Below, piece after piece: positions 21,801 to 51,000 of a stretch of DNA of 52,813 nucleotides; the first letter of the stretch is position 1; each line of letters starts with the position of its first letter. The translations under genes and the position numbers were made by a program. Below the pieces are notes generated by a model. That model did not search any database. It was not told the DNA's origin and saw nothing but the letters and a program-made list of their open reading frames with translations. This DNA comes from a virus: the IMG/VR virus record IMGVR_UViG_3300030331_003561, positions 1 to 52,813 of that record. One strand, 5' to 3'.

Positions 21801-24800
21801 AGAAGTCAGTACTTCCTATCATACTAGCACTATTTACCCCTACTTGATTTAACCTACCCCCTGTAGTGGTTCCATTAGCATCCCAAAAAGGATTAGAAAC
21901 ACCCCCAATAACATTAAAATTAGAAGCTGGTGCTCCAGTTCCACAAGTAGTATAACTACCTGGTATACAAAAACGTGCTCCTAATGAACTATAATTATTA
22001 TTCCCACCAGCTTTATTAATAGTTTGACCTGAAGTTGTAGTACTTGCAGTGTAAGCTACACATAATTCACTTACAGTATCATATTCATACCCTGGAGGAC
22101 AATCACAAACCTCTTGTCCAGTTCCACAAGGTCCCTGAATAACAACACAATTGGGTTGGTCTATCTGAATCCCCGTAGGTGTATTATTATCGTTAATTAA
22201 ATAATATGTAAGATTATGGTTGGGGTCGGTTACATCCTGGGTGATACCACTTAATATACCTACCATATCATCTAACCAAACATTAGTACTCGGGATGTCA
22301 TATAATGTAGTACTACTATAGTAAGTGTTACCTGTATAAACAGTGCCACCTAGAGTAATTTTATTTTGCCAAGTTGCTCCTGAAAATTCTAAACCACCAC
22401 AATCTAAGAAAGCATTAACCAAAACATCATTAGTAATTGGGTAACAACAATTGACAAATGAACCAAAACAATCTAAATCTTCACACAATGGTTCATGTTT
22501 ATAAGAGTATTTGTATCTATGAAAAATAGAATTTTCATATTTTACTCCACCTTGCCATATAGTGGTAGCTGGTATAAGTTGTTCTAATAACCTAATCCAA
22601 TAGTCACCCATATTTTCCACATACTCAATCATTTTTTCATAAGTGTACTTATTACTTGGTATTCCACAAGTTTGGTCACTATTCATATAATCTAGGTAAA
22701 TACTCAACAGTGTTGGATATCCACCTGCGTGTCCGTCATCTATAGTTTGTCTGTTTTTAACATTTATTAAAACAGTCCAAAATTTTTGTGCAAATTCAAA
22801 AAATGATAGTTTAGTTGCGTCAGCTAAAATTTCAGTCCAATCAGGTCCTCCTACACCAGGATATGGAGAACTTAAAGCGTTAGGACCAAAAGGACAACTA
22901 TACCTCCTTGAGTGATTCCAAACATCCCATTCTAATCCTTGGCCTACATTTAAAAATACGTCTACATTTTTTACATTAATAACTAACTTATCATTTTTAG
23001 TCTGGTAGTTAGTTCCTCTATCAGCAAGATTTAAATATCTAAAATCGTTACTATCTTTTTTAACCCAAGATTTTTTATTGTCTACAGTTCTAACAATGGG
23101 AAAACCTAGTTTAGAATCTGGAAATTTTCTATAAAGTTGTAAATAAGGTTCACCGTATGTAAATTTATTTAATTTAGTTTTAATAAACGGTGTATTTCCA
23201 GTAAAAACTGAAGTGTTAAAATCCACTACTTCTTTTCCTGTGTGTTCTGTAGTTTCTTCAAACCAACCAGCACCAGCTTGGAAGTAAGCGTTTGGCCCGT
23301 ATTTAGGAATTGTGGGATATCCGTCTTTATCTACTGGTAAAGCGCTGGGATTTACAGTAGTATTCTTAGTTATAGTTTCATAACCCTGACTAAATCCTGT
23401 AACAATTATTGGTGGGAAAGAATTTGTCGCGGCGGAAAAATAGGTTTGGAGTACTGGTTGTTCTTCAGTATATGTTCCTCCAGATATTTTTAATTCAAAC
23501 TCTTTAAATTTTTGCATGTTCATAGGTTGTCCTGCAACATAAACATGTTCGTTAAATTCTATTAATGCTTCAGGTGCTCCCACAAACCTTAACATAAATT
23601 CTATACCTCTTCTTGTACCCTTACTCTTGAACAAATAAGCCGTGTTAACTAATAATCTTCTATATAATTCAAAATCTAGTTCTGAAGGGGTAGGACTTAC
23701 ACCCTGTGATGGGTACTCTGGGTTTTCGTTTCTCTTAAATAAAGTATCTAAAAATCCTTCGTTTTTAATTGCTGAAGGAGTCCCCCATCCTAGTGTTTGA
23801 GCTAAGTTTTTTAATAACTCATTAGGTACGTTATTCTGACTATCGTAAGTTACGTTGGTCATATAAGCGAGACCATCAATATATTTTTTTACATCATCAA
23901 AACTTCTACCGTAAATTTTTAAAATTTTATCTACTTTTTCATCATAAGTGTCAAATTCTTTAAATGCCGCAGTAGTTAAAAATCTAGAAACTAAATTTGT
24001 TTTGTAAGAATCAAAGGTATCAGCAACATCAAATAATTGACTAAGATAAGCATCAAAAAGAGAACCACTAATTATTATATTACCATCCTCAGTACTAGGC
24101 CATGTGATGAACGTTTTACCTTTTACTATTACACCATTAGCTCCCTCTTGGGGTTGTTGAAATTTAGCAGTATATATTGGATTACTTTTTCTTTCTACTA
24201 AAAACTTTTCTATATCTTCTAAAGAATCAAAACTTTCTTCTATAGTTAATGTATTTGGTTTAATATGAAAAGTATCTACTGTACTAGATTGGCCACTAAA
24301 TGGGTTTCCTGTTACTTTTATATTTAAACTACCTAAATTAGTATTACCAGAAGTAGCTTGAATAAAAGTTAAAGGGTATTGTACATTGTTTAAATATAAT
24401 GAGTATTTTTTAAATGAAAAAAGTAAATTTCTCAATTCATTAAATTCATCACCTGTAGGTATTAGTGAAGCTTGAGTAAACTCCAAACCGAATGGGTTGA
24501 ATAGTGTATATAAATTTAAGTTTAAATTAGTTTCGTTTGTATTAGGATTAAAAGTAATATTTGTTGCGGTTTCTCCACTTAAGAAATCTGCCCAAGTTCT
24601 AAATTGGTCAAACTTCATGGACGCGGGGAATTTTCTAATAACTTGTTGTACCGCTACTTTTAACCTTTCTCTTAGAGACCCATAAAGTGTGTAATTACTA
24701 ACCTTACTCCTATCAAACTTTATAAAAACTTCTAATTTGTTAGAGGCTAGTAATTTGGACTCACTAATATCTGTAATTTGTAAAGTTTCTAAATTTATAG

Positions 24801-24987
24801 GTTCAGAAAAATTACCTAAAGAAAAGTCTCTAGAGTTTTTTTGTGTGAAATTACTTGTGATACTAAAGTTTCCTAAAGTGAATTGAGATGTACCATCAAC
24901 AAATTGATTTCCCACCAATTTGTCTCCAAATACATCTGCCCCATTTCCTGGGATAGGATTACTATTGTTGTTGTAAAGTCCTGACAT
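15889..24987 (-). CDS. Giant 3032-aa tail/baseplate protein: P2 gpI-like N-terminal part fused to multi-domain Cys-rich adhesin
   Basis: Residues about 330-500 resemble the P2 gpI baseplate family (Tail_P2_I). An alpha-helical YGRSFDDVKKYIDGL region and NELLKNLAQTLGW are followed near 455 by LFKSKGTRRGIEFMLRFVGAP, the characteristic Lys-Gly-Thr-x-x-Gly-Ile segment. Then come Cys-rich EGF-like units (CDCPPGYEYD near 962, CPSGYTYD near 1199) flanking a PA14-like segment at about 1020-1150 (EVAEEGEYLFALAGDDEIR, NAGQNTLLLEG). A block at about 1250-1560 is paralogous to the 1028-aa protein, and a CBM5/12-like unit lies near 1585 (YNYNDKVLDAQGNVYVWKG). The remaining C-terminal 1400 residues are beta-rich and end in a Cys-rich segment (CKCGKN...KWCC). 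It therefore probably attaches to the baseplate at its N-terminus and reaches the cell surface with the rest. It is coupled by TAATG to the 303-aa gene. Confidence 0.7.
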   Translation of the reverse strand: MSGLYNNNSNPIPGNGADVFGDKLVGNQFVDGTSQFTLGNFSITSNFTQKNSRDFSLGNFSEPINLETLQITDISESKLLASNKLEVFIKFDRSKVSNYTLYGSLRERLKVAVQQVIRKFPASMKFDQFRTWADFLSGETATNITFNPNTNETNLNLNLYTLFNPFGLEFTQASLIPTGDEFNELRNLLFSFKKYSLYLNNVQYPLTFIQATSGNTNLGSLNIKVTGNPFSGQSSTVDTFHIKPNTLTIEESFDSLEDIEKFLVERKSNPIYTAKFQQPQEGANGVIVKGKTFITWPSTEDGNIIISGSLFDAYLSQLFDVADTFDSYKTNLVSRFLTTAAFKEFDTYDEKVDKILKIYGRSFDDVKKYIDGLAYMTNVTYDSQNNVPNELLKNLAQTLGWGTPSAIKNEGFLDTLFKRNENPEYPSQGVSPTPSELDFELYRRLLVNTAYLFKSKGTRRGIEFMLRFVGAPEALIEFNEHVYVAGQPMNMQKFKEFELKISGGTYTEEQPVLQTYFSAATNSFPPIIVTGFSQGYETITKNTTVNPSALPVDKDGYPTIPKYGPNAYFQAGAGWFEETTEHTGKEVVDFNTSVFTGNTPFIKTKLNKFTYGEPYLQLYRKFPDSKLGFPIVRTVDNKKSWVKKDSNDFRYLNLADRGTNYQTKNDKLVINVKNVDVFLNVGQGLEWDVWNHSRRYSCPFGPNALSSPYPGVGGPDWTEILADATKLSFFEFAQKFWTVLINVKNRQTIDDGHAGGYPTLLSIYLDYMNSDQTCGIPSNKYTYEKMIEYVENMGDYWIRLLEQLIPATTIWQGGVKYENSIFHRYKYSYKHEPLCEDLDCFGSFVNCCYPITNDVLVNAFLDCGGLEFSGATWQNKITLGGTVYTGNTYYSSTTLYDIPSTNVWLDDMVGILSGITQDVTDPNHNLTYYLINDNNTPTGIQIDQPNCVVIQGPCGTGQEVCDCPPGYEYDTVSELCVAYTASTTTSGQTINKAGGNNNYSSLGARFCIPGSYTTCGTGAPASNFNVIGGVSNPFWDANGTTTGGRLNQVGVNSASMIGSTDFFGFSRCIEVAEEGEYLFALAGDDEIRATLNGVQIVNNPWNGGLSSNNFRYWWVWPVTLNAGQNTLLLEGANGFATGPTSFGCEIIGPFSAGTFTVNTDFDIFSTQAGIDTYTANTIFSSINEVGNTFNTETNTCPSGYTYDVCTDSCIKTTEPGCTTYPDGEDAWNFNNGSDPHTFKTEICLNIETNQVSPTPDKDIWVFYLYKEIGLAQTNAAKVAVDNWVSSLGTSYTGHVYHLPVINNRWLSWASLPKSGGTITIGTGLYFNNFTLPPGSGGSNYTIDPNVSDDVLMIGIIPDSRKSYHSDQDFNSCGFRTPQNDISDWSYITTQPTSEYQTDFTEFSNVFNNYNSFQAFIYPVITGKPVPQTTFTFPLHIYGALSTSTVLPADLVENPTVTALGGTLSAITFSNPYTALTATNLSTGYSGPGLENFGFGASYDAGTNMCGGLTCSDLAFSNTCTSQPPFGTFDPTYFYTNGIFQSQLAQFLGSSATTTSNICEICVPICYNDEFIDVNLYDSSISYNYNDKVLDAQGNVYVWKGNDNSFTGLPSVDSEWILLGPIDAIPFLGGNNFTEGEDCDNFDEVIEPPEVTGTTITTNPEIFKDGIFNVGGQDCFVSTYNPCEELVDPCACDATYGEFDVSSTLFELGDVVCCPGIPSEGITERKWVRTDNFGVCRDVALFIPSLCGEEPSIPKCWSLCDDETSGENRTSGGKSSKEHFSRPNRVPSLIVNDIVDPCDPEEPTEPTNSCLDCGDGNVKSMMLNLDFYDIPPNQVPQKVLDFAQNEDHLGEISGPGTISSNKNPFKKARINLCCLTDKLIHYFRVYNRIGPVPTNPQEISYGHVEVNYDIDQNTIVEFYYQPGRFGLGGDRDMIDKLFMYIPPSTNQIQSTPPTIVDNPSVGNSLSTQNITFSSFFNSLNEICVQIGRRNSQQQLSFFKLRRYPDSSYLTDNGTGTNNAENNDIFDRYWALDPKSLDGQGLYGAMSTREIIYVVGSTEGPIDLLRSNAYRYNWEMKMSCKGSEYQDIIFNPSMIENSQLYTNGDVPFSLGCGTDTRTPLVNQNESSNRVPVRIADLTTKGNTFNIPVEKAMEEAGVNKDILKNYEVRNSEMYIISNTNPLTQSRNIEYNSPVTITNTNGPTSEIFVENNRKRIKLGWLDKVAKGSENNLIIEFVSNENKSRFSQDIKQKSVGNGVLTLPNEEELPSSRNTRGEDNVSFYNSTDNRSLDIRVNDPNEPTPRKYVTYTDLRDWAINSIGEIKDLSNKQILYTSGGLVQGFQIGPTYTTNVANSQYLSGLVPIGDVETEFLISTLGSFEDYVRNQTGSTSSGLTISLSGINTNYSGYTNLSGYTDNQEQNISPDFVFDISLKGSSMSLGSNIAMSDPIMGEFRLIGDDRQLHPSIPLPLVEREPVLFNLTRQEVSEGGEYFYYKIPKTQNYRLQYKSHLKLEYFDEGWCEYLNVYRNLTENTFPNNDYEFKQLINSSILYNGGFASAPAEYQEGNIANNYTQPYGYLTPVFGYSPNQGFGNFNTTVYIQRIISGTTSATTLGKYTVASNSTITPSANETLILPYNDSDKFTDLYQCTGTTGTTAIFTKECDFYIDTGCVTLDKGDEIRLKVEINWDSTTKAFTGSTTGTSVNLTLGSNYTTNPESRPWFRVINKECNVTTSNNYLYWQPNEDSVLTESFINGKNVPPSPNDKKGKLILLNSIEEETNYLVPKVNKNNLNNLTYLDIPTDKNYKGPLKLIPTTEKTNNWVKAIEEGRITDYRINDVKLLNIDKGSEVKWNIPVNFNNEVESISLDDSSHTFVVQSTVGVKGTDKSFDIINTLEPNVTTESIKEPNNESKTLLDRGTISYISSRPLEDRTIDFRENHTIIRDKVIIVESGVYDKDTPTPTPSRGEYCKCGKNTYLEVPKTSNYPCSKWCCATDYNGTEYYGCKGKTPAQWIDGLYRDTNISTRPLIITEGKPPGVIRF

Positions 24988-28407: not shown

Positions 28408-29994
28408 TTATTGCCATAACGAATACGTTAATAAGTTTATTCCCGAAATATTTTCCCAATGAGACAAATTAAATGTAGGGTTGGTTGTATAACCACCCGC
28501 CCACACTACACCGTCTGAGTCTTGGTAGGGTACTATATCTTGAGTATTAGAGTCCACATAAGTTAAGTCTATCCAACTAGGACAACCCTCAACTAGGGTT
28601 TGAATATTAGTTGTAACATCTATAACTCGTGTACCTTTAAATGTATATGTGTTTCCTTGGTAGTAAACCTTTTCATCCATTTGTAAATTGATAGCTGGAT
28701 TATATTCTGATATCTCCTCATTAGAAGTAATTCCAACATTAGAAGACTTACGTTCATCCTTACAAGGTAGACATGCTTGCCATTCAGGGCTACCATAATT
28801 AGGAGTAGATTTACAAGAAAAAATTAAAGCGTTCTTAGGTTGACAATACCAACAACAACCATCATAAGCGACGGTGGTACCTTGTACATATTCTATATTT
28901 GGGTCCCAAGAACCCTTAGGTATTGTTTTCCCAAATTCTTTACAGTCACACCCTAACACATATTCTTCCTCATTACAACATTCCCATTCTAGATTGTTTA
29001 CATTCCAACCATTACTTTGTGCTGCAAAGTACACATCATTAAAACTATAGGCTGTGTAGTTAATTTGATTAATCGTATATGCGGTATATTTTTCGTTACT
29101 TTCAGTGATGAACCCTTCCGATTCTTCAGTTAATGCAACATTTTGTCCAATAGGTGGTAAGGACCCATCTCCGTAACTTTGAAACATTCCTAATGTATTA
29201 TTAGTTGTTGTGCCTGTCACACTAAATGGAGTTTGTACGTAATTAGAACTAAAGTAGTCGTAAACATCAGGATTACTATCACCACTGTAAATATAGTTTT
29301 GTGGTATTTCCATACAAGCTATGGGTGAACCTACGTTAGGTGGTTTAATTTCTACAGTTCCGAAAACGTTAGGTATATTGACTTGAGTGGTATAAGGTAA
29401 ATTTATAATTTTACTTATTTTAGTAGTACCCCAGGGATTTACTTGACTTACAGTTATTTTATATTCTCCAGGGGTAGAGTAACTGTGAGTAACATTTGCG
29501 GGGTTACTGTTCATAACATCGGTACTCCCATCACCCCAATCTACGTTAAAACTACCAAAAGTTAAAAATCTTTTAAATTCTGTATCTGAGGTATTGGTAA
29601 CCGTAACTAATAAATTATCAGCTGTATATAAAAAATTGTTAATCACATTTCTTTGTATAACTAAACCGTCAAACGGTGTGTAAACACCAATGTCATTAAA
29701 ATCTTCTGTTATTATAATAGGAACTGTAAATCCTGTTAAACAAGGTGGTGATTCTGGTAATTCATTTTGACTTGTCTGTGGGTCTACCCATTTTTTACAC
29801 CAATAATTTTCTCTAATTTCTGCATTCCAATAATTACAATAACCGTTGTTATTAAAATAACAATTACCACAATTTTGTCCTGTTGGCACTCCACTAGAAG
29901 TCTGAGAGATATAAGTAGATGGTAAAGCAGGACTTAGAGCTTCTGTTTCTCCAGGGTAAAATAATCTTTTAATTTTAAATTTATAATCTTCCAT
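28408..29994 (-). CDS. Structural protein with PKD domain and CBM5/12-like units
   Basis: This 528-aa protein has, in order: a short Cys motif at about 40-68 (NCGNCYFNNNGYCNYW...YWCKKW), a four-cysteine pattern reminiscent of small iron-sulfur or metal-binding modules; a PKD-type Ig fold at about 145-190 (FNVDWGDGST, then THSYSTPGEYKITV), a family typical of bacterial surface and carbohydrate-active proteins; and a CBM5/12-like unit at about 360-383 (SWDPNIEYVQGTTVAYDGCC) with a weaker second copy near 430-455 (NLQMDEKVYYQGNTYTFKG). CBM5/12 modules bind chitin-like or other glycans. It is coupled by TAATG to the 340-aa gene before it. The likely job is glycan or surface binding from the tail; domain calls are from hand-read motifs. 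Confidence 0.65.
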   Translation of the reverse strand: MEDYKFKIKRLFYPGETEALSPALPSTYISQTSSGVPTGQNCGNCYFNNNGYCNYWNAEIRENYWCKKWVDPQTSQNELPESPPCLTGFTVPIIITEDFNDIGVYTPFDGLVIQRNVINNFLYTADNLLVTVTNTSDTEFKRFLTFGSFNVDWGDGSTDVMNSNPANVTHSYSTPGEYKITVSQVNPWGTTKISKIINLPYTTQVNIPNVFGTVEIKPPNVGSPIACMEIPQNYIYSGDSNPDVYDYFSSNYVQTPFSVTGTTTNNTLGMFQSYGDGSLPPIGQNVALTEESEGFITESNEKYTAYTINQINYTAYSFNDVYFAAQSNGWNVNNLEWECCNEEEYVLGCDCKEFGKTIPKGSWDPNIEYVQGTTVAYDGCCWYCQPKNALIFSCKSTPNYGSPEWQACLPCKDERKSSNVGITSNEEISEYNPAINLQMDEKVYYQGNTYTFKGTRVIDVTTNIQTLVEGCPSWIDLTYVDSNTQDIVPYQDSDGVVWAGGYTTNPTFNLSHWENISGINLLTYSLWQ

Positions 29995-31016
29995 TATGGT
30001 GAATTAAAGTATTGATAAAATTTTATTCGATTATCTGCAGTAGTTCCCACTCTTGAGTTGGTTTGTGTGTTAAAAACACTGTACGTGAATCTATCTCTAT
30101 TTAAATTAACCCTATAATAAAAATTTTCTTCTGGTTTGAAAACAAACGGGTTAGACAAGGTGTTTTGTGGTTTATTTAAAAACTGTGTTACTTCACCACT
30201 TTTACCATTGTAAAATTTTGCTGACATATAAAAGACAGTCGTTTTAATAAAACTTTCTTCTTTTAACCAATAAATGTAATAACCTTCACTGTTATCTATA
30301 GGACTTAAAGTAAAAGACGGTTTAACTACGTATTTTTCTCCTTCAGGTTTACAATTGTATCTGCCGTCTGGTTTTCCGTCAGATGGACAAGATAAATCCA
30401 ATGTGGGTCTAAATATTTTTTCTCCTTTAAGAGGACTTAAAATTAAAGATATAAGTAATTTTTGTTCGTTTCTTAATGGGCTATCATATAAGTCTAACTT
30501 AAAAAAACTTTTAACAAAACTTTTTTCATTTCGATATGTTTGTTCTGGTGTAAATCCTTGATTATCATAACCGTACCAAGTGGTAATATTGGAAGGGTCA
30601 TAAGGAGAATATATGGTGGCTTCTGCATTAGTCGGATATAGAGCTTCTAGTCTAGGCCCTAAACAAGGTACTACACCATCTGAATTAAAGCCTCCACTAG
30701 CTAATGGTGTCAAAGGATAGGTTAGTGTTAATGGATTCGTGTTAATTAAATTACCAAAATTAAAATCGTAAAAAGTATTCGGACTAGGGTCTACGGGATT
30801 TTTATTGTCTCCAGGAAAATAATCGTGACTATACTGAGTGACTTCATAATCCCTTTTAAGGTCTAATAGTGTATCTATAACACCGTCTTCGTATTCCTTT
30901 ATTAAATCACCCCTACCAAACTCATCTGTAGTGTGTTTAAGGGGAATTACAATTCTCCTATTTAAATCTCCGTCTTGTCTTTGATTTAATCTTATTCTTA
31001 ATTTATTCACAGCCAT
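29994..31016 (-). CDS. Baseplate/tail structural protein of unknown family
   Basis: I do not recognise this 340-aa protein. It is soluble, moderately charged at the N-terminus (NKLRIRLNQRQDGDLNRRIV) and beta-rich further on, with only two cysteines spaced as SCPSDGKPDGRYNC near residue 210. There are no enzyme or membrane motifs. Its ATG lies inside the last codons of the 570-aa gene (14-base overlap) and its stop overlaps the next ATG (TAATG). The 570-, 340- and 528-aa genes therefore form a tightly coupled set downstream of gp25, gp6 and the 1183-aa gene. In contractile-tailed phages such positions usually encode baseplate wedge or peripheral components, which is the inference here. Confidence 0.55.
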   Translation of the reverse strand: MAVNKLRIRLNQRQDGDLNRRIVIPLKHTTDEFGRGDLIKEYEDGVIDTLLDLKRDYEVTQYSHDYFPGDNKNPVDPSPNTFYDFNFGNLINTNPLTLTYPLTPLASGGFNSDGVVPCLGPRLEALYPTNAEATIYSPYDPSNITTWYGYDNQGFTPEQTYRNEKSFVKSFFKLDLYDSPLRNEQKLLISLILSPLKGEKIFRPTLDLSCPSDGKPDGRYNCKPEGEKYVVKPSFTLSPIDNSEGYYIYWLKEESFIKTTVFYMSAKFYNGKSGEVTQFLNKPQNTLSNPFVFKPEENFYYRVNLNRDRFTYSVFNTQTNSRVGTTADNRIKFYQYFNSP

Positions 31017-32715
31017 CCTCTATAAAGTTTTCATTTGTGTTAGTTGCTGCACTTAACTGATAAGTATCTTCATTAATGAATGCATTTGCTCTAATTAATC
31101 TATTGACAAAAAAACTAATATCTGTCATCGGATAGTGAGAAGCATTTATAAAAGGGTAGTCTACACCTGTATTACCTTCAATAAAACCTATATCGTATAT
31201 ATCTCTCCATTTCCAAGTTTTTTCTATTTCAAAGTAAGTTGCATAATCAGGAACATTGGCAATTTTTCTAGGGTCACCACTTTCTATATAATCAGAATAA
31301 GTCCTTATAGGAACTGGATAGTGTGGTTTGTAAGTATAACTACCTTCTCCATCTAAGTTATAAAAAACATTTGTATTAAATTTAAAACTATGTTTAATAT
31401 CACTAATGGTCCTTTCTTTTAAATCGTACTTATTATATTCAGTGAAAGCTCCCCTTAGTTTATCACCAGGAACTAGGGGTAAACCAGAATTTAAACTTCC
31501 TATAGTAGTATAAATAATATTAGAGATGGGTTGTGGGTCACCAGGATGTCCTCTAACTATATTACCATTAAAATTAGTATCTGCAAAATTATAAGGAAAA
31601 TTCCAATCCCACCCATAAGTGGGTGGATAATCTAAATACCCTAAATTATTTCTTAACATTATAGTTATGTAAAGTGTGGTTATAGGTCTTTGTAAATTAT
31701 CTAAATATTTTTTAACATTTATATCTTTAGTGAAAGAGTATAAATACGTTGGGTAATCTTCTTTTATCGCTACTCTCTCTATAGCGTCTGGATTTTCAAA
31801 TTGACTTTGAAATTTTTTTACTGTTTTAAATACTCCTTCAGCGAAAGCACATTTATTAAGAGTATAATCTTCTACATCAGTAATAATTTCATGTTCAATT
31901 ACATAATAACTAGATACACTACTATTATCATTTAAATTTATTTGTCTTTTAAATAATCCTAATGTATTATCGTTAATTTGGGGTGATTGTCCGTTATTAA
32001 CAGAAGGGATATATAAATTAAAAACATGTTTGTTAGATTGTCTTTTACTGTTACCTAAACTAAAGACTGGGTACGTTATATTTCCATTTGTAAAACCTGG
32101 GTATTGATTATTAGGTATGTTTAACCTAACATATTCACCCATTTTTAAACCGTGAGGTGCACCACAAGTAAATTCTAATATTTTTTTACCACCAACCACT
32201 CTATTTTTAATATAAAAAGGTATACCTTCGTTTGCTAAAAAGTTTAAAGTGTCACCTCCTTCAAATGGGGTATACGACATTGGTTGTTCTCCGTCACAAT
32301 CGTAAGTAGGTATTGTAACATACAAATTCCAATTAGTTTCTTCCGCGACAGATTCATCAGTATCTGACCTTAAAAAATCAAAATGTCTATATTCTGGATA
32401 ACCTTTAAATTCTACATTACCACCACTAAAAAACTGACCAGTACTATATAAACTATAAATTAGATTAGATGCTGTCTGACTTGCTGTACCAGAAAAAGCG
32501 TTATCTACGTATGGTTGTATTTTACCGTATAGTCTATAATTAGAGAAATTTTGTCTTTCTGTATTATATCTTACAGAAAGGTTTAAAGGTACACTTCTAT
32601 CACCCTCAATAAGTTCTCTAGAATCTTCTTCTAAATTAACATTTAACAAGGTGTCAACAGGTGGAGCCCCTTTATACTTTTTATCTGCTGGAATTATTTT
32701 ATAAGGATTACTCAT
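31003..32715 (-). CDS. Baseplate/tail structural protein of unknown family
   Basis: This 570-aa protein has no recognised domain, transmembrane helix or catalytic motif. A tract such as NTERQNFSNYRLYGKIQPYV near residues 50-70 and an aromatic-rich region around LGYLDYPPTYGWDWNFPYNF near residue 370 stand out. A phrase near residue 190, CGAPHGLKMGEYVRLNIP, recalls a beta-strand and turn seen in structural proteins. It starts inside the last codons of the 1183-aa gene (8-base overlap, with ATG and TAA interleaved) and runs into the 340-aa gene, so all three are likely translated as a coupled unit. The location next to gp6-type wedge genes suggests a baseplate component; the function is unknown. 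Confidence 0.55.
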   Translation of the reverse strand: MSNPYKIIPADKKYKGAPPVDTLLNVNLEEDSRELIEGDRSVPLNLSVRYNTERQNFSNYRLYGKIQPYVDNAFSGTASQTASNLIYSLYSTGQFFSGGNVEFKGYPEYRHFDFLRSDTDESVAEETNWNLYVTIPTYDCDGEQPMSYTPFEGGDTLNFLANEGIPFYIKNRVVGGKKILEFTCGAPHGLKMGEYVRLNIPNNQYPGFTNGNITYPVFSLGNSKRQSNKHVFNLYIPSVNNGQSPQINDNTLGLFKRQINLNDNSSVSSYYVIEHEIITDVEDYTLNKCAFAEGVFKTVKKFQSQFENPDAIERVAIKEDYPTYLYSFTKDINVKKYLDNLQRPITTLYITIMLRNNLGYLDYPPTYGWDWNFPYNFADTNFNGNIVRGHPGDPQPISNIIYTTIGSLNSGLPLVPGDKLRGAFTEYNKYDLKERTISDIKHSFKFNTNVFYNLDGEGSYTYKPHYPVPIRTYSDYIESGDPRKIANVPDYATYFEIEKTWKWRDIYDIGFIEGNTGVDYPFINASHYPMTDISFFVNRLIRANAFINEDTYQLSAATNTNENFIEDGCE

Positions 32716-35700
32716 CGTCTTTCGGGGGTAAATATTCGTTTATAAACTTTTCATATGCAGAACCACCAGGCCTTAAACCAAAATAAAAAAACAATCCAGT
32801 ACCTAACCTATAAGTAGAACTAGGTTCTAACCCACCTGTTTGACCAGTAATAGAATTTGCAAAATACCCAAAACCTGGTGGGGTTGTTTGTCCTTCATAA
32901 AAATAAGGACTAATCCAAGTATCTGGAACGTTAGGTTCTGGTTTTTCATAGTAAAGTCCTTGTTGATATCCAATAACCTCCACCCCAGGAAGTCCTTGAT
33001 ACCCATAATCATTACTATAAGTGCCAAACGTGTTTCCAGCGACTGTCCACGGGTAATACGGTACTACTTGGGTGTGTGGTACACCGAAACCTCCACCCAT
33101 TAAACAAACAGTTAGAGGAAAATCTCTTGTAATTAAAGGAAATGGTGTTGTAGCGGTAGTTATTTTGGTTTCACCTGGGTATTCTGATAAATCCCATAAA
33201 ATCGGGGTTTGAAAATTGTTATTGTTAACAAACTGGTCAGGCATATATCTACTAAACCATTCGGTCATAGTTCCGTCTGATGCTCCATAATATGGGTCTT
33301 CTGGGTCGGTAGAAAAAACTGAAACACCCATCATGTTGTTAGTGGCTAGTAGTTGTGCTATGTCTCCATCAATAACTCTGTTTCTATAATATCCTGGAAA
33401 TCCAGTACTAGTACCGTCACCAGGACTTCCAAATCTTTGATTACCTTGATTTCTATTAAAAGGAGAATCTGGTTCCGCGTCTGCTCCAAACCATTTGTTT
33501 ATTCCAGACCATAAAAATTCTTTAAAATTATTAGTAGCCGCAATTTTTCTTTCTACAATCATACCTAATAAATTTTCACTGTTTTGGAAGCTGGTAGGTT
33601 TTAATCTATCTACCACATAACAATTGTCTTTATCGTATAATTTTTCTTCTTGACATATTTCGTCAATACATGGGTCTAACGGACCTAAGTCCATTATTGT
33701 TGTAGGGAAATTAATGCCATATTTTTCTTGTTTTCCATTACCTGACCCATCTGCAGTTAAACTAGATTGCATTGTAAATTCATCTCCAGTAAACGGACAA
33801 GAGCGATAATAGTAGTATTTTTTTTCATCTTCTATTTTTTCGTAAACAATTCTTTTAGGATACCGAGTAACTTGGTCTATCTCTGGTATTAAGTTTCCTT
33901 TGGAATCTAATTTTTTTCTCTTTTTCAAAAATTTATAATGGTATAATACTCCATTTATCCAATTATTACTGAATTTCATATTAAATATCCCCTCACATAA
34001 TCCACTATAAATATTAGCTAATATTCTCCACTGATTTAAACTTCTATACATGTGATATATACTACTTATAATAAAACCTAATAAGGTAAGACCACCACCT
34101 AAAGCAACACCTAATAATATAGATGAACCACCGTATGGAATAGCTGAAGCGACAGTAATAGCACTCATAGCAATAATGAAAGTAGTCCACACAGATTTTC
34201 TCCATTGTAGAACATAACAGCCTTTTGGGTGACCTTCTCTATTTGGGTCCCCTCTCCAAAATAATGCATTTTGCACTTCCTCTCCATTATTATCTCTTGG
34301 CCCAAACCCTACCATGTAAGGTTCATTATTACAATCATTAACATATTCTGGTGCATCCGCAAGAGTTTCTTGTACTTTTTGTTCATCCGATACAAATATC
34401 CCTAGTATTGGGTCTAATTTAAACTCGTAACTACTGCCACAAAAACAAGGTTCACAGTTAGGATAATTAAAAATTCTTCTGACAACATAAAAACTATGTA
34501 TAATACTGTAAGCTAAGGGAAAATATAAAAATATTAATAACAAAATACACATAATAAGTGTAGGTATCCAGGTAGATAAAGTACCTGCAAATAATGAAGC
34601 GGCGATGGATGCATCAAATGGATTTGCTACTACCGCGATAGATGCAATTGCTTGAGTCATTTCTGCTGAAGAATCATTACAGTAGTTTACATACTGATAG
34701 ACCATCATTAATAAACTTACCCCACCCGCAAAAGCTCCTAATAAAATTGTTATTAATTGAACTACTCTATTTATTTGTTGGGTAGCAAATGATAAACTCC
34801 CTCCTCTAAATGCATCATTAACAGGAAATGGGTTATTTGGGCAAGGACTATCTGGTGAAGGGTTAATAGATTTTATACCTAAAAATCTCCACCTACTATT
34901 AGCTGTTGTTAAAGTACTTCCTTTTCGTACATTTAACCTATAGTTGTCAATAAAACTACTTACAGTATAAACCCTATTAGGTCTAAATTCGTAAAAATAA
35001 TCGGAAGCTTGATACGCGGGTGAATTTAAGACGGGTGCTGGGTCTGGGTAGTCTTCAAAATTTTCAGAAAAAGTATATGAAGCGTCAATATTGTCATTAT
35101 ATTCTCTAAGATTAGGTACCAAATACCTACCACTCCTAACTTCACCACCAGAGGCGTCTAAAGTTACCCTAAATCTGTACCTTGCTCTAGTAGGTATACC
35201 TACTTTTGGGTCTGAGGATATAATCTGTTCACCGTATTCATTAGTAACTAAAAAATCTAAATTCATGGGTAACTGAGTTACCCAGGCTCCATTTCCATCA
35301 ATTACTTTACCTCCATTGTCTAATGTAAAATTTTCCAAAGTGGGGCACCCTTCATTATCTTTAATGATAGTATGTCTGATAGCTTCTATTGTTCCAGTAC
35401 CTGTACTTAAATCACACATGGAACCTTGTTTTTTAGTAGGCATACCATCTATACTCACATAATTATTATCGTTATCTGTAATTACAGAACCCATAAAAGT
35501 TGCACTGGGAATAATCTCCACCCCCGAATCCCTTAAATCAAAATCCATTCTAGTGATACCTATACCACACAATTCATCATCACCCCAAAAAGGGACAACT
35601 TCAACAGCTTTATTTTGTATAACAATTTGTGGTAAAGTGTCCAAGTTTTCAGATGTTTTAAAATCTAAAGAACTTTCAAACTGACTAGGGCTAAGTCCTT

Positions 35701-36259
35701 GCCTAATAAACTGGTAGGGCCTCATCGAATAACACCCAATATCACTAACGTCAATACTTGCGTGAATATTTTGATTACCTAAAGGAACACCCCATAACAT
35801 GTAATCACCACTTTCATTAGTTTTAGTAGTGTATTTGTAATATTTTTCAAAAACTTCTAATATAATAGGATTGTTTATAGCTTCTTTAGCTGTAAAAAAA
35901 CTACCAGTAGCTTTGTGATTACAACTTTCTGAATACTTTGGTAAAAGATTATATCTGTAACCTTCTTCATTTTTATCTGTTACTGTTTTATAAGGGTATA
36001 GTTCGGAAATAACTGGGTCTAGTTCGTCTTCTTCAGTAAGAGGCACAAATATAGAAATTTTAGCGTTAGGTATTCCGAATCCACCGTTGGCAACAGCTCT
36101 ACCCACAATTACACCGTAATCCGCACACATTCTAGCGTACACATCCGACTTTACAATTTTAAGACTTAGTATTTCTAGTTGGTCGAAATCTTGTTCTAAG
36201 GTTACTTGTATGTGTTTGTCCGAATTGGTTTCTGCTTTTATCCTATATGATTTTGCCAT
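32708..36259 (-). CDS. Large baseplate-region protein with internal hydrophobic (membrane-like) segments
   Basis: This 1183-aa protein follows gp25 and gp6. Residues about 45-190 look like a carboxypeptidase-regulatory/CNA-B-type beta-sandwich split by an insertion (VIVGRAVANGGFGIPNAKIS, then TNESGDYMLWGVPLGNQNIH). The middle has three long hydrophobic stretches: about 497-526 (QLITILLGAFAGGVSLLMMV), about 553-600 (WIPTLIMCILLLIFLYFPLA) and about 685-735 (TTFIIAMSAITVASAIP, ILLGVALGGGLTLLGFIISS). A Cys cluster (CEPCFCG) follows the second. The last 400 residues are polar and aromatic. Virion structural proteins rarely have such segments unless they enter or pierce a membrane. It starts after an A/T-rich leader with a near-perfect TATTTATA variant. 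The coding call is firm; the function is not recognised. Confidence 0.65.
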   Translation of the reverse strand: MAKSYRIKAETNSDKHIQVTLEQDFDQLEILSLKIVKSDVYARMCADYGVIVGRAVANGGFGIPNAKISIFVPLTEEDELDPVISELYPYKTVTDKNEEGYRYNLLPKYSESCNHKATGSFFTAKEAINNPIILEVFEKYYKYTTKTNESGDYMLWGVPLGNQNIHASIDVSDIGCYSMRPYQFIRQGLSPSQFESSLDFKTSENLDTLPQIVIQNKAVEVVPFWGDDELCGIGITRMDFDLRDSGVEIIPSATFMGSVITDNDNNYVSIDGMPTKKQGSMCDLSTGTGTIEAIRHTIIKDNEGCPTLENFTLDNGGKVIDGNGAWVTQLPMNLDFLVTNEYGEQIISSDPKVGIPTRARYRFRVTLDASGGEVRSGRYLVPNLREYNDNIDASYTFSENFEDYPDPAPVLNSPAYQASDYFYEFRPNRVYTVSSFIDNYRLNVRKGSTLTTANSRWRFLGIKSINPSPDSPCPNNPFPVNDAFRGGSLSFATQQINRVVQLITILLGAFAGGVSLLMMVYQYVNYCNDSSAEMTQAIASIAVVANPFDASIAASLFAGTLSTWIPTLIMCILLLIFLYFPLAYSIIHSFYVVRRIFNYPNCEPCFCGSSYEFKLDPILGIFVSDEQKVQETLADAPEYVNDCNNEPYMVGFGPRDNNGEEVQNALFWRGDPNREGHPKGCYVLQWRKSVWTTFIIAMSAITVASAIPYGGSSILLGVALGGGLTLLGFIISSIYHMYRSLNQWRILANIYSGLCEGIFNMKFSNNWINGVLYHYKFLKKRKKLDSKGNLIPEIDQVTRYPKRIVYEKIEDEKKYYYYRSCPFTGDEFTMQSSLTADGSGNGKQEKYGINFPTTIMDLGPLDPCIDEICQEEKLYDKDNCYVVDRLKPTSFQNSENLLGMIVERKIAATNNFKEFLWSGINKWFGADAEPDSPFNRNQGNQRFGSPGDGTSTGFPGYYRNRVIDGDIAQLLATNNMMGVSVFSTDPEDPYYGASDGTMTEWFSRYMPDQFVNNNNFQTPILWDLSEYPGETKITTATTPFPLITRDFPLTVCLMGGGFGVPHTQVVPYYPWTVAGNTFGTYSNDYGYQGLPGVEVIGYQQGLYYEKPEPNVPDTWISPYFYEGQTTPPGFGYFANSITGQTGGLEPSSTYRLGTGLFFYFGLRPGGSAYEKFINEYLPPKDDE

Positions 36260-36275: not shown

Positions 36276-36283
36276 AATAAATA
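36276..36283 (-). promoter_or_regulatory. Variant TATTTATA motif (TATTTATT) before the 1183-aa gene
   Basis: The minus strand reads ACTATTTATTTTATAAAAG, one mismatch from the motif seen before five other genes. It lies 16 bases before the ATG at 36259, in the same position relative to the start as the perfect copies, which is the main reason to list it. Confidence 0.35.
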
Positions 36284-36289
36284 GTTATG

Positions 36290-36333: not shown

Positions 36334-38187
36334 TTATGATACTGTAGCTTGTAATGTAGATTTAACTCTCACTACAATATCTTTTGTTGGAAATTTTATT
36401 TGAAATGATTGTGTTGGTTGTGAAAATACTACTCCGTCAATTAATTCTATTTGTTTGGTTTCAGGGTCGGAGTATCTTTGTGAGACTTCGTTACTAGAGT
36501 ATTGTCCCCCAACTTTATTGTATAATCTTAAGTCAATTAAATTTATTACTCCATCCTGAGATGAAATATTTTTCGTTAATTCACCAACAAAAAGGTCTGT
36601 GCCCATTTCTCTATTATTTGGTGAAAAGAAAGATTGTGTTGTGTTGATGACGTTACTGATTATGACCCCACTATTAAATGATGGGTCTATCAATAAATCC
36701 ATTTCAATACCTAAATCTATTACCTGTGCTGGTGAAACAACTATGTAATCATTTAACATTCTAAAGTCGGATAAGTAATTAGCTATATTTTCCATTAAAG
36801 TCGTACTTACTCTGGAAGTTAGACTACCGTCTGTATTATAGGAAAGTAAATTAACGATTATTTTATTTTCAATTTCCATTATTCCACACTTTGCTGGAGC
36901 ACCAAACACTGAAGGCATAGTATCAATTAAAGATTTATAATCTTGTATTGTTACCGCTCTTTTTTGTGCAGCAAAATTAAAACCAACATAATTCCTAACT
37001 TCTTCCACACTGGGTTGGTTAGCCCCTCCTACCGCTGCGGTAACATTATTAACTTGTAACGAATTTTGTACTGATTGATTTATATTGTTATTTGGTCCAT
37101 TTATAACAAAATCTATGGTCCCTAAATTAGTTATACTGTTTGGTCCAACATTTGTAGTTTTACCACCACCGACTCTATATTGAATAAAAATAGTACTATT
37201 ACTTTTAGGTGTACTACCTAAAGATAAGTTATTCATATACTTACTCAAATCCATAGCAAGTCCTTGTTGGGTGAAATCATCTAAACTATCTTGTCCACTA
37301 CTGGTACCACCACCTAATGTAAGATGAAAGAATCCCTCAGGAGTATATTCAGTTATAAATCTCTGATTAACACTTTCCCATTTTCCAACTTTAACACCAG
37401 GTAAGTCAGAAGGTTTAGTAGTATCAACCATAAAAACTTTATCTTGAGCTAAAGCATCTACTTCATACCATTTGTTATCGGAAGTTAAAAATTCAGTAGC
37501 TTTAGGTATAGCTTGTATATTAGTCCCATCTTTTTGGATGACTCCCGTAACACCTAACACATTTTTTTCAGGTAAAAATATTTTTAAAAATGGTGAAACA
37601 TTAACGTCTGTTATAACTTTTTTGAATACTTTGGTGATTCCATTAACCACCACCTCTCTTTTAGTTATGGTATAACTTACTATATTACCATTAGCGTCAA
37701 AGTTTGGTACTTTGGTTCGGTTAGGGAATCCTGTAGAGTCAAATGGTAAAGAAAAATCTACATCGTGTACATTTTCAAACACTTGTCCAGCACCCACGAC
37801 TTGTGAACCCCTCCTTAATGTGCCCAAATATCTAAAATCTTCCTTATCTCCCCCACCAGAAGTTTGTAATATAGGAACGGTAAGTGAAAAATCACAAACA
37901 GAAACAGATGGTCTATTACCTGGTAATTTTAAACCATATGTTCTAGCTATATTATATAGGGAAGACCTTTGATTTGCGTATTGTAATACTGTCTCTTGTA
38001 AAGACCTGTCTATATGGTAATGTAAATTGTCTGCAACCGCAGCGTTTAAATCTAAAAATACAGAAAAGATGGAAGCGTCATTAGCGTTCTGTATTAAATC
38101 GGGATATTGTTGTTGTACATACGTTAATAGTTCATTCCTTATCCCTACAAAATCTCTTTCACTGTACGATATTTTATTATTAGCCAT
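36334..38187 (-). CDS. Baseplate wedge protein, T4 gp6 / baseplate J family
   Basis: This 617-aa protein has the hallmarks of the gp6/gpJ family that forms the baseplate inner ring. The N-terminal region reads ISYSERDFVGIRNELLTYVQ, then a helical AAVADNLHYHIDRSLQETVL and a YGLKLPGNRPS turn. A central domain contains EEVRNYVGFNFAAQKRAVTIQDYKSLI-type sequence, followed by a C-terminal beta domain. T4 gp6 is 660 aa, so the length agrees. Its neighbour gp25 is the classical partner, and both are needed for sheath and wedge assembly. The gene follows gp25 with a 1-base gap, so they share a transcript and probably stoichiometry. The family call is strong; fine functional detail is from T4 and P2. 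Confidence 0.85.
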   Translation of the reverse strand: MANNKISYSERDFVGIRNELLTYVQQQYPDLIQNANDASIFSVFLDLNAAVADNLHYHIDRSLQETVLQYANQRSSLYNIARTYGLKLPGNRPSVSVCDFSLTVPILQTSGGGDKEDFRYLGTLRRGSQVVGAGQVFENVHDVDFSLPFDSTGFPNRTKVPNFDANGNIVSYTITKREVVVNGITKVFKKVITDVNVSPFLKIFLPEKNVLGVTGVIQKDGTNIQAIPKATEFLTSDNKWYEVDALAQDKVFMVDTTKPSDLPGVKVGKWESVNQRFITEYTPEGFFHLTLGGGTSSGQDSLDDFTQQGLAMDLSKYMNNLSLGSTPKSNSTIFIQYRVGGGKTTNVGPNSITNLGTIDFVINGPNNNINQSVQNSLQVNNVTAAVGGANQPSVEEVRNYVGFNFAAQKRAVTIQDYKSLIDTMPSVFGAPAKCGIMEIENKIIVNLLSYNTDGSLTSRVSTTLMENIANYLSDFRMLNDYIVVSPAQVIDLGIEMDLLIDPSFNSGVIISNVINTTQSFFSPNNREMGTDLFVGELTKNISSQDGVINLIDLRLYNKVGGQYSSNEVSQRYSDPETKQIELIDGVVFSQPTQSFQIKFPTKDIVVRVKSTLQATVS

Positions 38188-38188: not shown

Positions 38189-38647
38189 TTATAAATTTAT
38201 TATTACAAAATCTTTAGTTTCAAAAGCTTCATTAGTGATTGTAAATTCTAAAGTTACTTTTGCAGTGTGTTCTTTAGTGCCTTGACCAGCTACTCTATAA
38301 ACTCTAGGGTCATTATCAGTTACAACAGTACCTGGTAATTCCTCAGCTTCTAATGCTGGTTCTATTTTAATATTATCTATTTTGAGGTTGGGGATGTACT
38401 TGATTACTTGTTCCCTAATTTCAGACTGAATAGAGTCAAAGGTAATGTTATCCAAAGGTTCAAAAATATATTCATATAAGGTAGTTCCAAAATCTGGTAA
38501 AAAATATCTACTTCCTTTTCTAGTTAATAACAAATGAATTAAATTTGATTTTATTTCATCTTCAGTAGTGGGAGTAAGTTGCAAATAGTAACCATCTCTA
38601 CTGTCCTGAAAAGGAAAATCTATTCCATATGTTGAAGAAGTCGGCAT
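38189..38647 (-). CDS. Baseplate wedge protein gp25 (GPW/gp25 lysozyme-like fold family)
   Basis: This 152-aa protein matches the gp25/gpW family of contractile tails and secretion systems. It begins with a GIDFPFQDSRDGYYLQLT segment, then EDEIKSNLIHLLLTRKGSRY, FLPDFGTTLYEYIFEPLD and an acidic helix before the conserved terminal strands. The central R-K-G-x-R-Y...P-x-F-G pattern is the signature of the family. T4 gp25 is 132 aa and initiates sheath polymerisation at the baseplate. The gene follows a TATTTATA promoter-like motif and precedes gp6, suggesting it opens the late structural transcript just after the nucleotide-metabolism block. Confidence 0.88.
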   Translation of the reverse strand: MPTSSTYGIDFPFQDSRDGYYLQLTPTTEDEIKSNLIHLLLTRKGSRYFLPDFGTTLYEYIFEPLDNITFDSIQSEIREQVIKYIPNLKIDNIKIEPALEAEELPGTVVTDNDPRVYRVAGQGTKEHTAKVTLEFTITNEAFETKDFVIINL

Positions 38648-44634: not shown

Positions 44635-45069
44635 CTATTTTTCTATTTCCATTAACTCAACTTTAAAGTTAAGTTCTTCCCCAGCTAGTGGGTGATTTAA
44701 GTCTAGAATTACTTTCTTTTCTTGTAGTTCTTTAACTTTTGCTAAGATTGGTCTTCCGTCAATTGTTTGCCCTTGAACTGTTTCACCAATTTCTGGATTA
44801 AAATCAGGTGGAAGAGACTCCTTTGGTATTTCCGTTTGAGCTTCTTCTTTTCTAAGACCATAAGCTTCTTCTGGTTTTAAGTGTAGGTCTTTAGTTTCTC
44901 CAACTTCCATACCAATAACACCCTCATCAAATCCTTTTATCATTTGACCGGAACCCACTTCAAATTCTAATACTTGTCCTCTATCATAAGAACTGTCAAA
45001 TTTATTACCGTCATTTAAAGTACCAGTATAATGTACTTTAACTTTACTACCTTTTTCTACTTTTGCCAT
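44635..45069 (-). CDS. FKBP-type peptidyl-prolyl cis-trans isomerase, SlyD-like
   Basis: I start this gene at the ATG at 45069 (144 aa). The longer frame to 45105 would add 12 residues overlapping the UvsX end, with no homology to FKBPs. The protein has the FKBP core: KVHYTGTLNDGNKFDSSYDR, then EFEVGSGQMIKGFDEGVIGM and EEAYG. Between the last core strands is an inserted flap domain (about 73-128) with IPKESLPPDF, GETVQGQTIDGRPI and NHPLAGEEL, the SlyD/FKBP-26 pattern. SlyD enzymes are prolyl isomerases with chaperone activity; the Zn/Ni-binding His-rich tail of E. coli SlyD is absent. It lies 10 bases after uvsX. Prolyl isomerases are uncommon in phage genomes, so this is a probable capture from a host; its target is unknown. 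Confidence 0.88.
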   Translation of the reverse strand: MAKVEKGSKVKVHYTGTLNDGNKFDSSYDRGQVLEFEVGSGQMIKGFDEGVIGMEVGETKDLHLKPEEAYGLRKEEAQTEIPKESLPPDFNPEIGETVQGQTIDGRPILAKVKELQEKKVILDLNHPLAGEELNFKVELMEIEK

Positions 45070-45079
45070 TTTTTTTAAT

Positions 45080-46075
45080 TTAAAATATTTCACCAGTCTC
45101 TTCAACTGCTAAGTTATAATCACCATCAGAACCTATAATATCTTTCCAATATTCAGAATTTTCAGACTTATATCCTTCTATTGATTTTTTTTCTTCTCCA
45201 GCGTCCTTTCCTTTAAGGAAACCATGAGGTGTTACTAATATTTTGCCGTCCTCGTAACCTAAACCATTAACATGATTTTTCATAATTGAGATTTTAGTAC
45301 GGGTCGCAAATTTTACTTTTCTTTTATCTTTTGTTGCTGTTATTTTAGAAGTCCCAGCGTTCTTCTGATTACCAAATAAAAATACAATGGTTGAATTTAA
45401 CCATAGTGATTCTCCACCTTTAGCCTTAATTTTTGGTTGTGAAAAAGGGTTGTCTGGTAACTCTACCCAGGGTTGGTTAACTGTCACTAATGTATTTAAA
45501 TATTTAGAATTGGTATTCCTAGAACCTGTAATTCTTTGGTTAATTCCCATACCAATTTTATCCGATAGAACACTAGCGTTGTGTTGTTTACCACCTTTAC
45601 CATCAAAGGTCATTTTACACGGAACAGAACCTACTGAATCCCATAAAAGAACTAAATCATATTCTAGTTCACCTTTTTCTTGAGCATCTAATAATTCATT
45701 GATGTAATCTGTAATTTGTTCTATATATTCAAATCCATTGTTAAATAAGAAAAATCCGTCCCAGTCACCGTCTTTATCTTTTTCACATTCTAAACCCATA
45801 AGTTTAGCGTGGTCAAAGTCCCATTTTTGTTCAGTAATAATAAACACAGGTAAAATACCTTTTTTCTGTGCATCTACAGCTGTTTTAACTAAAGCGGTAG
45901 TCTTACCAGTATCACTGTGTCCCAAAAGCATATTAATATGTCCCATGGCTGGTCCTGGTAGTCCTGTAGCGTCTAGAAACGCTTCCCCCAAATCAAAAAA
46001 TCTATCTGGTTTGAAGGAAGCTTTTTTAGAGAACTTACTTTTAATGTCTTTAAAACTTTTTTTCTTTATTGCCAT
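45080..46075 (-). CDS. uvsX: RecA/UvsX recombinase
   Basis: This 331-aa protein is the strand-exchange recombinase used in recombination-dependent replication and repair. It has Walker A at 52-59 (GHSDTGKT), Walker B around D146 (LVLLWDSVGS) and the adjacent VTVNQPW and KAKGGESLWLNS segments that match the L2/DNA-binding region of RecA/UvsX. T4 UvsX is 391 aa and E. coli RecA 353 aa, so it is slightly short, with a reduced C-terminal domain. The basic N-terminus (MAIKKKSFKDIKSKFSKKAS) may help oligomerisation or DNA contact. It follows gp32 by 12 bases. T4 UvsX works with gp32 and the mediator UvsY; no UvsY is evident here. Confidence 0.9.
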   Translation of the reverse strand: MAIKKKSFKDIKSKFSKKASFKPDRFFDLGEAFLDATGLPGPAMGHINMLLGHSDTGKTTALVKTAVDAQKKGILPVFIITEQKWDFDHAKLMGLECEKDKDGDWDGFFLFNNGFEYIEQITDYINELLDAQEKGELEYDLVLLWDSVGSVPCKMTFDGKGGKQHNASVLSDKIGMGINQRITGSRNTNSKYLNTLVTVNQPWVELPDNPFSQPKIKAKGGESLWLNSTIVFLFGNQKNAGTSKITATKDKRKVKFATRTKISIMKNHVNGLGYEDGKILVTPHGFLKGKDAGEEKKSIEGYKSENSEYWKDIIGSDGDYNLAVEETGEIF

Positions 46076-48048: not shown

Positions 48049-48088
48049 GTTAGTTTTTAAAGAAATGACTTAATTAAAAAACTAACTA
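48047..48088 (-). repeat. 12-bp perfect inverted repeat at the end of the hub-amidase gene
   Basis: Arms at 48077-48088 (TAGTTAGTTTTT on the minus strand, beginning with the TAG stop codon) and 48047-48058 (AAAAACTAACTA) are separated by an 18-base loop. The stem is AU-rich and is followed by UUUAUAUA, not a clean U-tract, so it may be a weak terminator or an mRNA-protecting hairpin. It lies directly before the TATTTATA motif. Confidence 0.5.
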
Positions 48089-51000
48089 AGCGTAATCATT
48101 CCCAACGGGCCCTGGGTCTCCCACGATATCGTCATTCGGTGGTGTAATTATTTGAGTGTTACTAGAAGTGACGGGTGGATTTGATAACCCTGAAGCTAAA
48201 TCATCAGTACTATAAGGACTAGGAACTACTTTAAATCCTTTATTTCGTAATACATTATTTAATATAGCTTGATTCATATTAGAAATACCTTTTATATTAC
48301 TGTTTTCTATTTCTTCAAAAATTTGAGCTAGTTTTTTTCTTAAGTTATTACCTAAAGTACCACTTAAAGCTTCTTGACTTCTAAAACATGGGCATCTTTT
48401 ATTTGAAAAGTCGTTATGTCCTTTAACAACTTGTTTCCACATACTAACAGTAACACCTTTTTCTTTGTTATTAGTAACCTTAGGGTCGTTCACCGTCACA
48501 TCAATTGGGTTTATTCTTAATCTCATATTCTCATGAGCGGGTATGTCGTCATAATTTTGTTGTGAAAATGTTAGGTTTGGTTCTAATTCAAATATTTGGG
48601 TACCAAATAATAAATAAAGTACTGTCCATTCTAATGTATTTTTTTGTGCTGTAGTTGCGTACGTTCCACTACTATCATAAGAACCAATTTTTTGACAATC
48701 TGCAATCATAGAAACAGATATAGACTCTTGATTATGTCCTTGGACATGTGCACCGTCTTTATTTTCAGGTCTAGCTCCATATAGAGTACCATCTGGTTCA
48801 TTGTCTCCACCGGCAGCTCCTCTAGAAATTAAATAATGATACCCTATTCCTGCCCAACCTCTATTTAAATGTTGTGAATTTATATTACCGACAGGGTCTG
48901 AACCATAATTTATTCCACCAGTAACATGGATAACCACATATTTTCTAGTTTTACTTCTACCTGGAAAATATATTTTATTATTTTTCACATTTTCATATTC
49001 AGCTCTACCTTCTACGTTAAACCCACCTTCTTCAGCTACCTTTACTTCAGTTTCTTGTTTTTTCTTTACTCTACTTATTAATTTTTTATTAAGTTTAGCG
49101 ACTACGTTTTGGATATCTGGTAATTTATGGAATGGAACTCTAACTCCAGTAAAAGTTGTTGTCATTGTATTTGGTTGTATCGTATGTTCAACATCCAAAA
49201 TTAAATAAGGTCCATTAAACATAGGTACATTTCTTAATGTAAAGTACATTGTAGGTTGTATACATACGTTACCTAAAGAGGTTACTTTACAGGTATATGA
49301 ACGTGATTTATATATATTAAAAAGACTTAAACCTTGAGTCATAATACTATTATCATTAGCAGATTGTGCCATCATTTCTGTAACAACAAAAGATTCACTA
49401 GTATTTTTAAATTGACTTTGGTCTAAACTTATACCTTTAAACATTCCCTGAGATTGAATTGCAAAATCTACTGCAAAAGACATAACTTTATTACATCTGG
49501 CTGGGTCATTACAATTACTAAATAATGGATTTTCAGAAGTCCTACCCAGCATAAATGAGTCATTATTAAATCTTGATTGGGGTCCTAGGTCGGACAATTG
49601 GGTTGATGGTGGTCCTACATATTGACAAACAAACTTTGGGGAAGAGTCTAGGAAATCAACTTCTAAATGGGTACCGAATAGTGCATTAGCTTCATCTTGT
49701 GTACTAAATTTAGGAATAGGTGTGTTACTATTAGAAGCTATACCATAAAAATTAATATAACTAGGCATTCCATAAAAATTAAAATAATTACCTTGTAATA
49801 AAGTACCTATAATAGTTAATAGGGAAGCGTTCGCATTTTGAGGGTTAGTAAAGTTTTTAATTGCGTCTGTATCTAATATAGCTAAATCTCCAATATCTCT
49901 ATTTGCAACGTCTAAAAATAAAAAATCTTTAAATATAAACTTTGAACCAAAATCTTCTCCAGATATCCATTTATCGTTTAGTGTTTTAAAAACCATGTAC
50001 TGTTCCAATTTGTTTTCATCCGATTGATAAGCAGACTGATTTTGAAATTCTTCTACTTCACCAGAAACAGTAGTGGGTAAATCTTTTTTTAATCTTAGAA
50101 AAAGTTGCGTTAGGTACTCACTTTTTAAATTACTATAATTGTCGATAATTTGATTAAATATTTTACCTTTAAATTCTGTTACGTCAACTGGTTGGTTGGG
50201 TCCTGAAACAATCCTTTCAGTTACATACATTCTTATAACTTTACGTAATAATTTTATGTTAGAAGAGGTGAAAGCTATATTATTTTCTATGAAGAAATCA
50301 GTAACATAATTACCCAAATCTCCATATATTAAATCTGTTGTTTGGCCAGACAAGACTGGTGAATAAAACCCTACCTCCAATTGTAGTGTTTTCCATTCGT
50401 CTGGAAAACTCGTTTGGGAATCTAGAAGGGTAAGATTAGGTGGTAGGTTTCCACTATAGTTACCAAAATCATAATAATCAGCACCGTCCAATTGTAAAAA
50501 TGATTTGAATGATTTAATGTTAACATCTTTAGGGTTATAAAAATTAAAGGACAGTTGTCCACCCAAAAAGTTTTTCATTATCTGACTTATATTATTAAGT
50601 TGTGCCGTATATAAATCATAATTTAAATACTTTACATTAGACATCATACTTTCATCTAATTGTGATTTTTTTACTTTCATCATTTCTCTGAATAGACTCT
50701 GAAAAGTAGTTTCTACATTTCCTAATATAGTTGAAGTTGTAGCTGTTGTGTTATATATGTCGTCTTGGGTGTCTTTTTTAGTAAAGTCCAAAAAGTATCT
50801 TTCAAACACATCTAAAATATCTGGAGTGAAAACATCAAATAACTCCTCTATACTAGCATAGTTACTAGAATCTGTTATTGTGAAAACTGTTTGTTCGTCT
50901 ATATTTGGGTCTATAACCTTTAGATACTGATTTGGGTTAGGTAGTGTGTTTGTGTTGTGTTCAAAAAATCCATATCCCGCAGCTCCCCACATAAATCTAG

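Follow-up and report, generated by a model that had tools for sequence, protein, structure and literature searches.

For the passage of DNA from contractile tails across the last membrane, the candidates most often named are the hydrophobic stretches of the tape measure. The tape measures T4 gp29, lambda H and P2 T all carry membrane-type segments in the type of scan used here. Deletions in TP901-1 indicated that the hydrophobic regions of its tape measure are unlikely to be involved in membrane insertion, chaperone binding being suggested instead (PMC5099701). A hydrophobic stretch (insertion energy +0.16) is also present in gp7, one of the established wedge proteins of the T4 baseplate; its RefSeq note reads 'C-terminus is predicted integral membrane domain'. 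In Streptomyces, a membrane protein named CisA is proposed to bring contractile particles to the membrane (PMC12237407).

The locus compared here with these systems belongs to a 52.8-kb virus record, the whole of which is called the window below. P0001, a 1183-aa baseplate-module protein with membrane-type helices (32708..36259, minus strand), is defined by its ORF, which is intact from ATG to stop, by its family and by its fixed synteny. In transcription order, it is preceded by a gp25-type baseplate wedge protein (38189..38647, minus strand; Pfam PF04965, GPW_gp25, E 1e-10) and by a gp6-type baseplate wedge protein (36334..38187, minus strand; baseplate wedge PHROG 6, E 1.5e-16), which is found directly upstream in nearly all relatives. 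These matches bear out the placement just after gp25 and gp6 given in the original prediction, which names no strand. Downstream, a 570-aa partner gene (31003..32715, minus strand) shares an 8-base overlap with the end of P0001; at 86 out of 88 loci, this gene comes after that of the family, and family searches with it gave no match. The gap between gp6 and the family gene is nearly constant in length (55–80 nt in most loci). It carries a AACTATTTAT motif (36277..36286, minus strand) that looks like a late promoter and is likewise positioned in most relatives, ~10–20 bases 5' of the start codon of the family gene; in the clade of 1200–1400-aa forms, this candidate promoter reads GTTTCTATTTAT.

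A first scan of IMG/VR found 134 relatives of P0001, a second one using an alignment retrieved at least 560 relatives among 600 candidate stretches, and GTDB contigs yielded five. No match was obtained when P0001 and two divergent relatives were compared by tblastn with 50,697 cultured-phage records, nor when the family was searched, as a single sequence and as an alignment, against Pfam, PHROGs and PDB sequences. The family is carried by contractile-tailed viruses that form a large group with almost no cultured members. Our best guess for the host is Bacteroidota, because of two MAG hits among the five GTDB contigs, whose assignment is mixed, and of published predictions for aquatic phage groups, in which the membership of the group of P0001 is not established. 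The genes for gp25 and gp6 lie directly upstream of the family gene in 124 of the 134 loci, and eight further loci differ by an insertion of ~1 kb between gp6 and the family gene, so that the gene of P0001 lies inside the baseplate gene module. In L070 (7983–9011), a GIY-YIG homing endonuclease-like ORF is located just ahead of the family gene, and in front of this ORF 37 aa of the N-terminus of the family gene are present as a partial copy. In L115 (9006–9932), the insertion between gp6 and the family gene is an ORF of 308 aa that resembles a hydrolase and has a hydrophobic N-terminus, and similar insertions of ~1 kb are present in L089, L090, L095, L102, L112 and L117.

This synteny bears on the possibility that P0001 is a membrane protein absent from the virion, i.e. 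a host-membrane factor expressed from the baseplate operon and acting, for example, in superinfection exclusion or takeover. Such a role would agree with the membrane-type segments described below, which are real, and with Immuto, Mel-JY01 and LR756508, in which no homologue of P0001 was found near gp6 despite the gp25 and gp6 that they have in common with it. It is nevertheless very improbable, as the position inside the baseplate genes is fixed over great divergence and as the overlap with the 570-aa gene, the large size of P0001 and its strongly conserved N-terminal part all argue against it.

The original prediction described three long hydrophobic regions in P0001. Hydropathy and insertion energy both confirm that these regions exist, but they make up four segments, the third region (residues ~685–735) being split in two. 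Four hydropathy peaks above 1.6 were detected (residues 502–520, 569–587, 689–707 and 713–731), and no other tail protein of the window has any. In an insertion-energy scan with Hessa-type coefficients, the values of which are approximate and for which controls serve as the safeguard, segment 1 (residues 502–524; 34688..34756, minus strand) reached +0.24, segment 2 (residues 563–587; 34499..34573, minus strand) -3.19, segment 3 (residues 690–709; 34133..34192, minus strand) +0.41 and segment 4 (residues 712–735; 34055..34126, minus strand) +0.59. The controls separate cleanly: T4 holin and Imm gave -2.6, -1.7 and -1.2, all the membrane controls (these two and two small membrane proteins) were at or below -1.2, and soluble T4 proteins were at or above 2.3. 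No protein of the window except P0001 is at or below 1.0, and its segments are thus predicted to insert into a bilayer. Among the 19-residue windows of P0001, 38 have a hydropathy of at least 1.6; in 2000 composition-preserving shuffles of its sequence, the corresponding number averages 3.1 and never exceeds 33. The tallest peak of P0001 taken alone (2.54) is unexceptional, the 99.9th percentile of the shuffles being 2.68. Charge-free runs extend up to 44 residues. The membrane-like segments of P0001 are therefore confirmed as real, conservation being stronger evidence for them than the shuffle statistics.

The AlphaFold2 model of P0001, built with 71 sequences (mean pLDDT 77, pTM 0.75), covers the hydrophobic parts with helices at residues 489–544, 547–589, 688–704 and 709–755, which contain or, for segment 3, largely overlap the four segments. 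Over these helices, block pLDDT is mostly 79–91, with one block of 66 at residues 541–550. Buried beta structure was rejected for these segments, since they are modelled as confident helices. Segments 1 and 2 would pair as one hairpin and segments 3 and 4 as another, a pairing suggested by the secondary structure and the turns and not derived from coordinates. The model is also rich in beta structure. Residues 43–251 (35507..36133, minus strand), which are strongly conserved, span a predicted beta sandwich of the transthyretin, carboxypeptidase-regulatory or CnaB type: VIA-align aligned 79 residues with 2nsm (Z 10.4, rmsd 2.3), and other transthyretin/CnaB-type domains gave Z 10.0 and 9.9. No T4 baseplate chain was listed by Foldseek and VIA-align, with which mainly residues 43–251 were compared. 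Rows for cytolysins in the Foldseek list were discounted (E at or above 0.01, low TM-scores). Among viral models, Foldseek found one strong relative, A0A8S5LA66 from Myoviridae sp. ctPuP5 (E 1e-55, 977 alignment columns, 25% identity), whose structural likeness makes it very likely a member of the P0001 family; this protein is metagenome-derived and uncharacterized, so it gives no functional clue to P0001.

The hydrophobic peaks are kept across the family: in 69 of 71 aligned members, one or more fall in the block that corresponds to residues 479–602, and hardly any occur in the N- and C-terminal parts. With a threshold of 1.0 for insertion energy, at least one segment is found in 65 of the 71 members and none in the other six. 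The number of segments per member ranges from 0 to 4, i.e. 3 to 4 in the marine clade to which P0001 belongs, 1 to 4 in the 1600–2100-aa forms (one member having its fourth far from the block) and 0 to 1 in the 1200–1400-aa forms and the most distant relatives. Two examined members among the 1200–1400-aa forms have an amphipathic helix instead. With such numbers, sidedness cannot be constant, which weakens any pore model of fixed topology. Pairwise identity within the marine clade is 26–27% in the two helical blocks; the N-terminal part has 71%, and residues 740–780 (33920..34042, minus strand), a highly conserved stretch just after the second block, average 76%. A conserved CEPCFC motif follows the first block (residues 602–607; 34439..34456, minus strand), C602 and C605 being present in at least 90% of the 71 sequences.

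Despite this sequence drift, every face of the helical blocks is hydrophobic and none is hydrophilic in the marine clade. Such a combination of low identity and all-face hydrophobicity would suit lipid contact better than a packed core. These data thus bear on the alternative that the helices never meet lipid and pack together, or against gp6-type or partner proteins, in a soluble baseplate. The members that have no segment or an amphipathic helix fit this arrangement, as does T4 gp7, whose conserved stretch belongs to a known wedge protein. However, segment 2 at -3.19, the long charge-free runs and the lack of any hydrophilic face are difficult to reconcile with it, and segments far less conserved than their surroundings would be unusual for a packed core; a buried bundle is therefore considered unlikely.

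The likeness to T4 gp7 includes the position of the gene directly after gp6, a size of ~1000 aa and the possession of a conserved hydrophobic stretch. P0001 differs in having four segments, one of them at -3.19, versus the single borderline one of gp7. A further hallmark of the gp7 family is a helix-turn-helix that builds the core bundle together with gp6. The identification of P0001 as gp7 is without sequence support (hhalign probability 0.4%, no credible match with hmmsearch), which leaves room for a remote relation. Another protein of the window, of 3032 aa, has an N-terminus (540 residues; 23368..24987, minus strand) that matches the large post-gp6 gene of Mel-JY01, LR756508 and Immuto (E 1e-12 to 3e-6) and has no significant match with T4 gp7. 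It carries a KGT motif that resembles by eye those of gp7/gpI, and its possible gp7-type nature is a lead only; its predicted fold is of low confidence (mean pLDDT 56) and was uninformative in a PDB search.

The other tail genes were compared in a 190-kb relative, in which the scan took in every ORF of at least 60 aa within positions 43,002–111,899 (sheath, tube, tape-measure-type protein, hub, wedge and fibres). Across these 69 kb, only the homologue of P0001 has membrane-type segments. In five contigs from three clades, the tape-measure-type protein is devoid of them, its lowest values being 3.9 to 5.1. The putative identity of this protein rests on its position between the tube and hub genes, on the style of its sequence and on one weak match with a tape-measure PHROG (E 1e-4). 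P0001 itself was rejected as a tape measure, as it lies after gp6 and as the separate tape-measure-type protein is encoded between tube and hub. In the window, a hub-type protein with an amidase domain (48086–52777; PHROG 822, E 2e-22) is cut by the window edge, and its copy in the 190-kb relative has ~2140 aa. The window also encodes a 528-aa protein with a PKD domain (28408–29994; Pfam E 2.5e-5) and, between recombination and replication genes, an FKBP-type peptidyl-prolyl isomerase-like ORF (44635–45105).

In four distant relatives (L157, L159, L160 and L161), the stretch that separates gp6 from the family gene codes for a small protein of 69–137 aa. Each of these proteins has one membrane segment (+0.07 to -3.64 in this small sample of four loci) and they have cysteine-containing starts such as MGCDTCKQ, MACACKT, MGCNCKK and MCCTKK; the family genes of the same loci have at most one segment each. 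These small proteins would fit a membrane assembly site, and hence the proposal that the helices of P0001 tether the baseplate, while it is being built, to the host's inner membrane, the membrane step then belonging to assembly and not to entry. The membrane-type segments and the place in the baseplate module agree equally well with this proposal and with a role in entry. However, a baseplate protein permanently embedded in the membrane would have to be extracted from it to leave in the particle, and anchoring during assembly appears improbable.

The best explanation of the whole, a tentative one with slightly less than an even chance, is that P0001 belongs to the baseplate and that, on infection, its helical hairpins become inserted into a host membrane. 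Insertion of this kind fits the fixed place in the baseplate, the lipid-like conservation and the tape-measure contrast, and the following model can be drawn. P0001 would be a structural protein of the baseplate, docked to the gp6-gp25 wedge and its partners by its conserved N-terminal part (~480 residues, including the beta sandwich) and its conserved C-terminal part. The two hairpins, hydrophobic on all faces, would sit between these parts, shielded in the particle, and would enter a host membrane upon infection. Once inserted, they may anchor the baseplate or help to form the passage for DNA. P0001 would thereby perform, in these phages, a membrane step that is mostly ascribed to the tape measure; their own tape-measure-type protein is devoid of membrane segments. 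In this model, we infer the presence of P0001 in the virion, the shielding and insertion of its hairpins, the target membrane and the role as pore or anchor. The variation in segment number, the six members devoid of segments and the two with an amphipathic helix weaken it, and T4 gp7 calls for caution, as it shows that a wedge protein can carry one hydrophobic stretch that has no known membrane role. The model is also weakened by the basis of the tape-measure assignment (position, sequence style and one weak PHROG match) and by the TP901-1 deletions (PMC5099701). The tape-measure contrast also leads to a wider idea, which is rather doubtful: in this group, the membrane-spanning step of genome entry might have passed from a protein within the tail, the tape measure, to one on its outside, in the baseplate, a ring of helical hairpins linked to the wedge being inserted into the host membrane.

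The original prediction, according to which hydrophobic segments buried in a baseplate protein could be released on contraction and form a pore or channel in the host membrane, is partly supported: the segments are conserved, helical and membrane-like, the place of the gene in the baseplate module is constant, and the buried beta structure that would have spoken against the prediction is not seen in the model. The absence of membrane segments from the tape-measure-type protein and the range of segment numbers within the family are new. Besides adding an unannotated protein family with hundreds of relatives, these data provide a natural contrast, i.e. a widespread group whose tape measure is devoid of such stretches and whose sole membrane-type tail protein belongs to the baseplate module. 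P0001 is thus a single gene on which the question of the membrane step can be tested, the evidence from tape-measure deletions being mixed (PMC5099701).

Among known systems, CisA is likened to P0001 by description and not by sequence: it is a membrane protein linked with a tail-like contractile particle, which makes it a functional parallel for anchoring during assembly, but it is a bitopic adaptor that is absent from the particle (PMC12237407). T4 gp29, lambda gpH, P2 gpT and the TMP of TP901-1 resemble P0001 as tail proteins with membrane-type helices and a proposed role in DNA passage. P0001 differs from these tape measures in that it is rich in beta structure according to its model, is encoded in the baseplate module and occurs beside a separate tape-measure-type protein.
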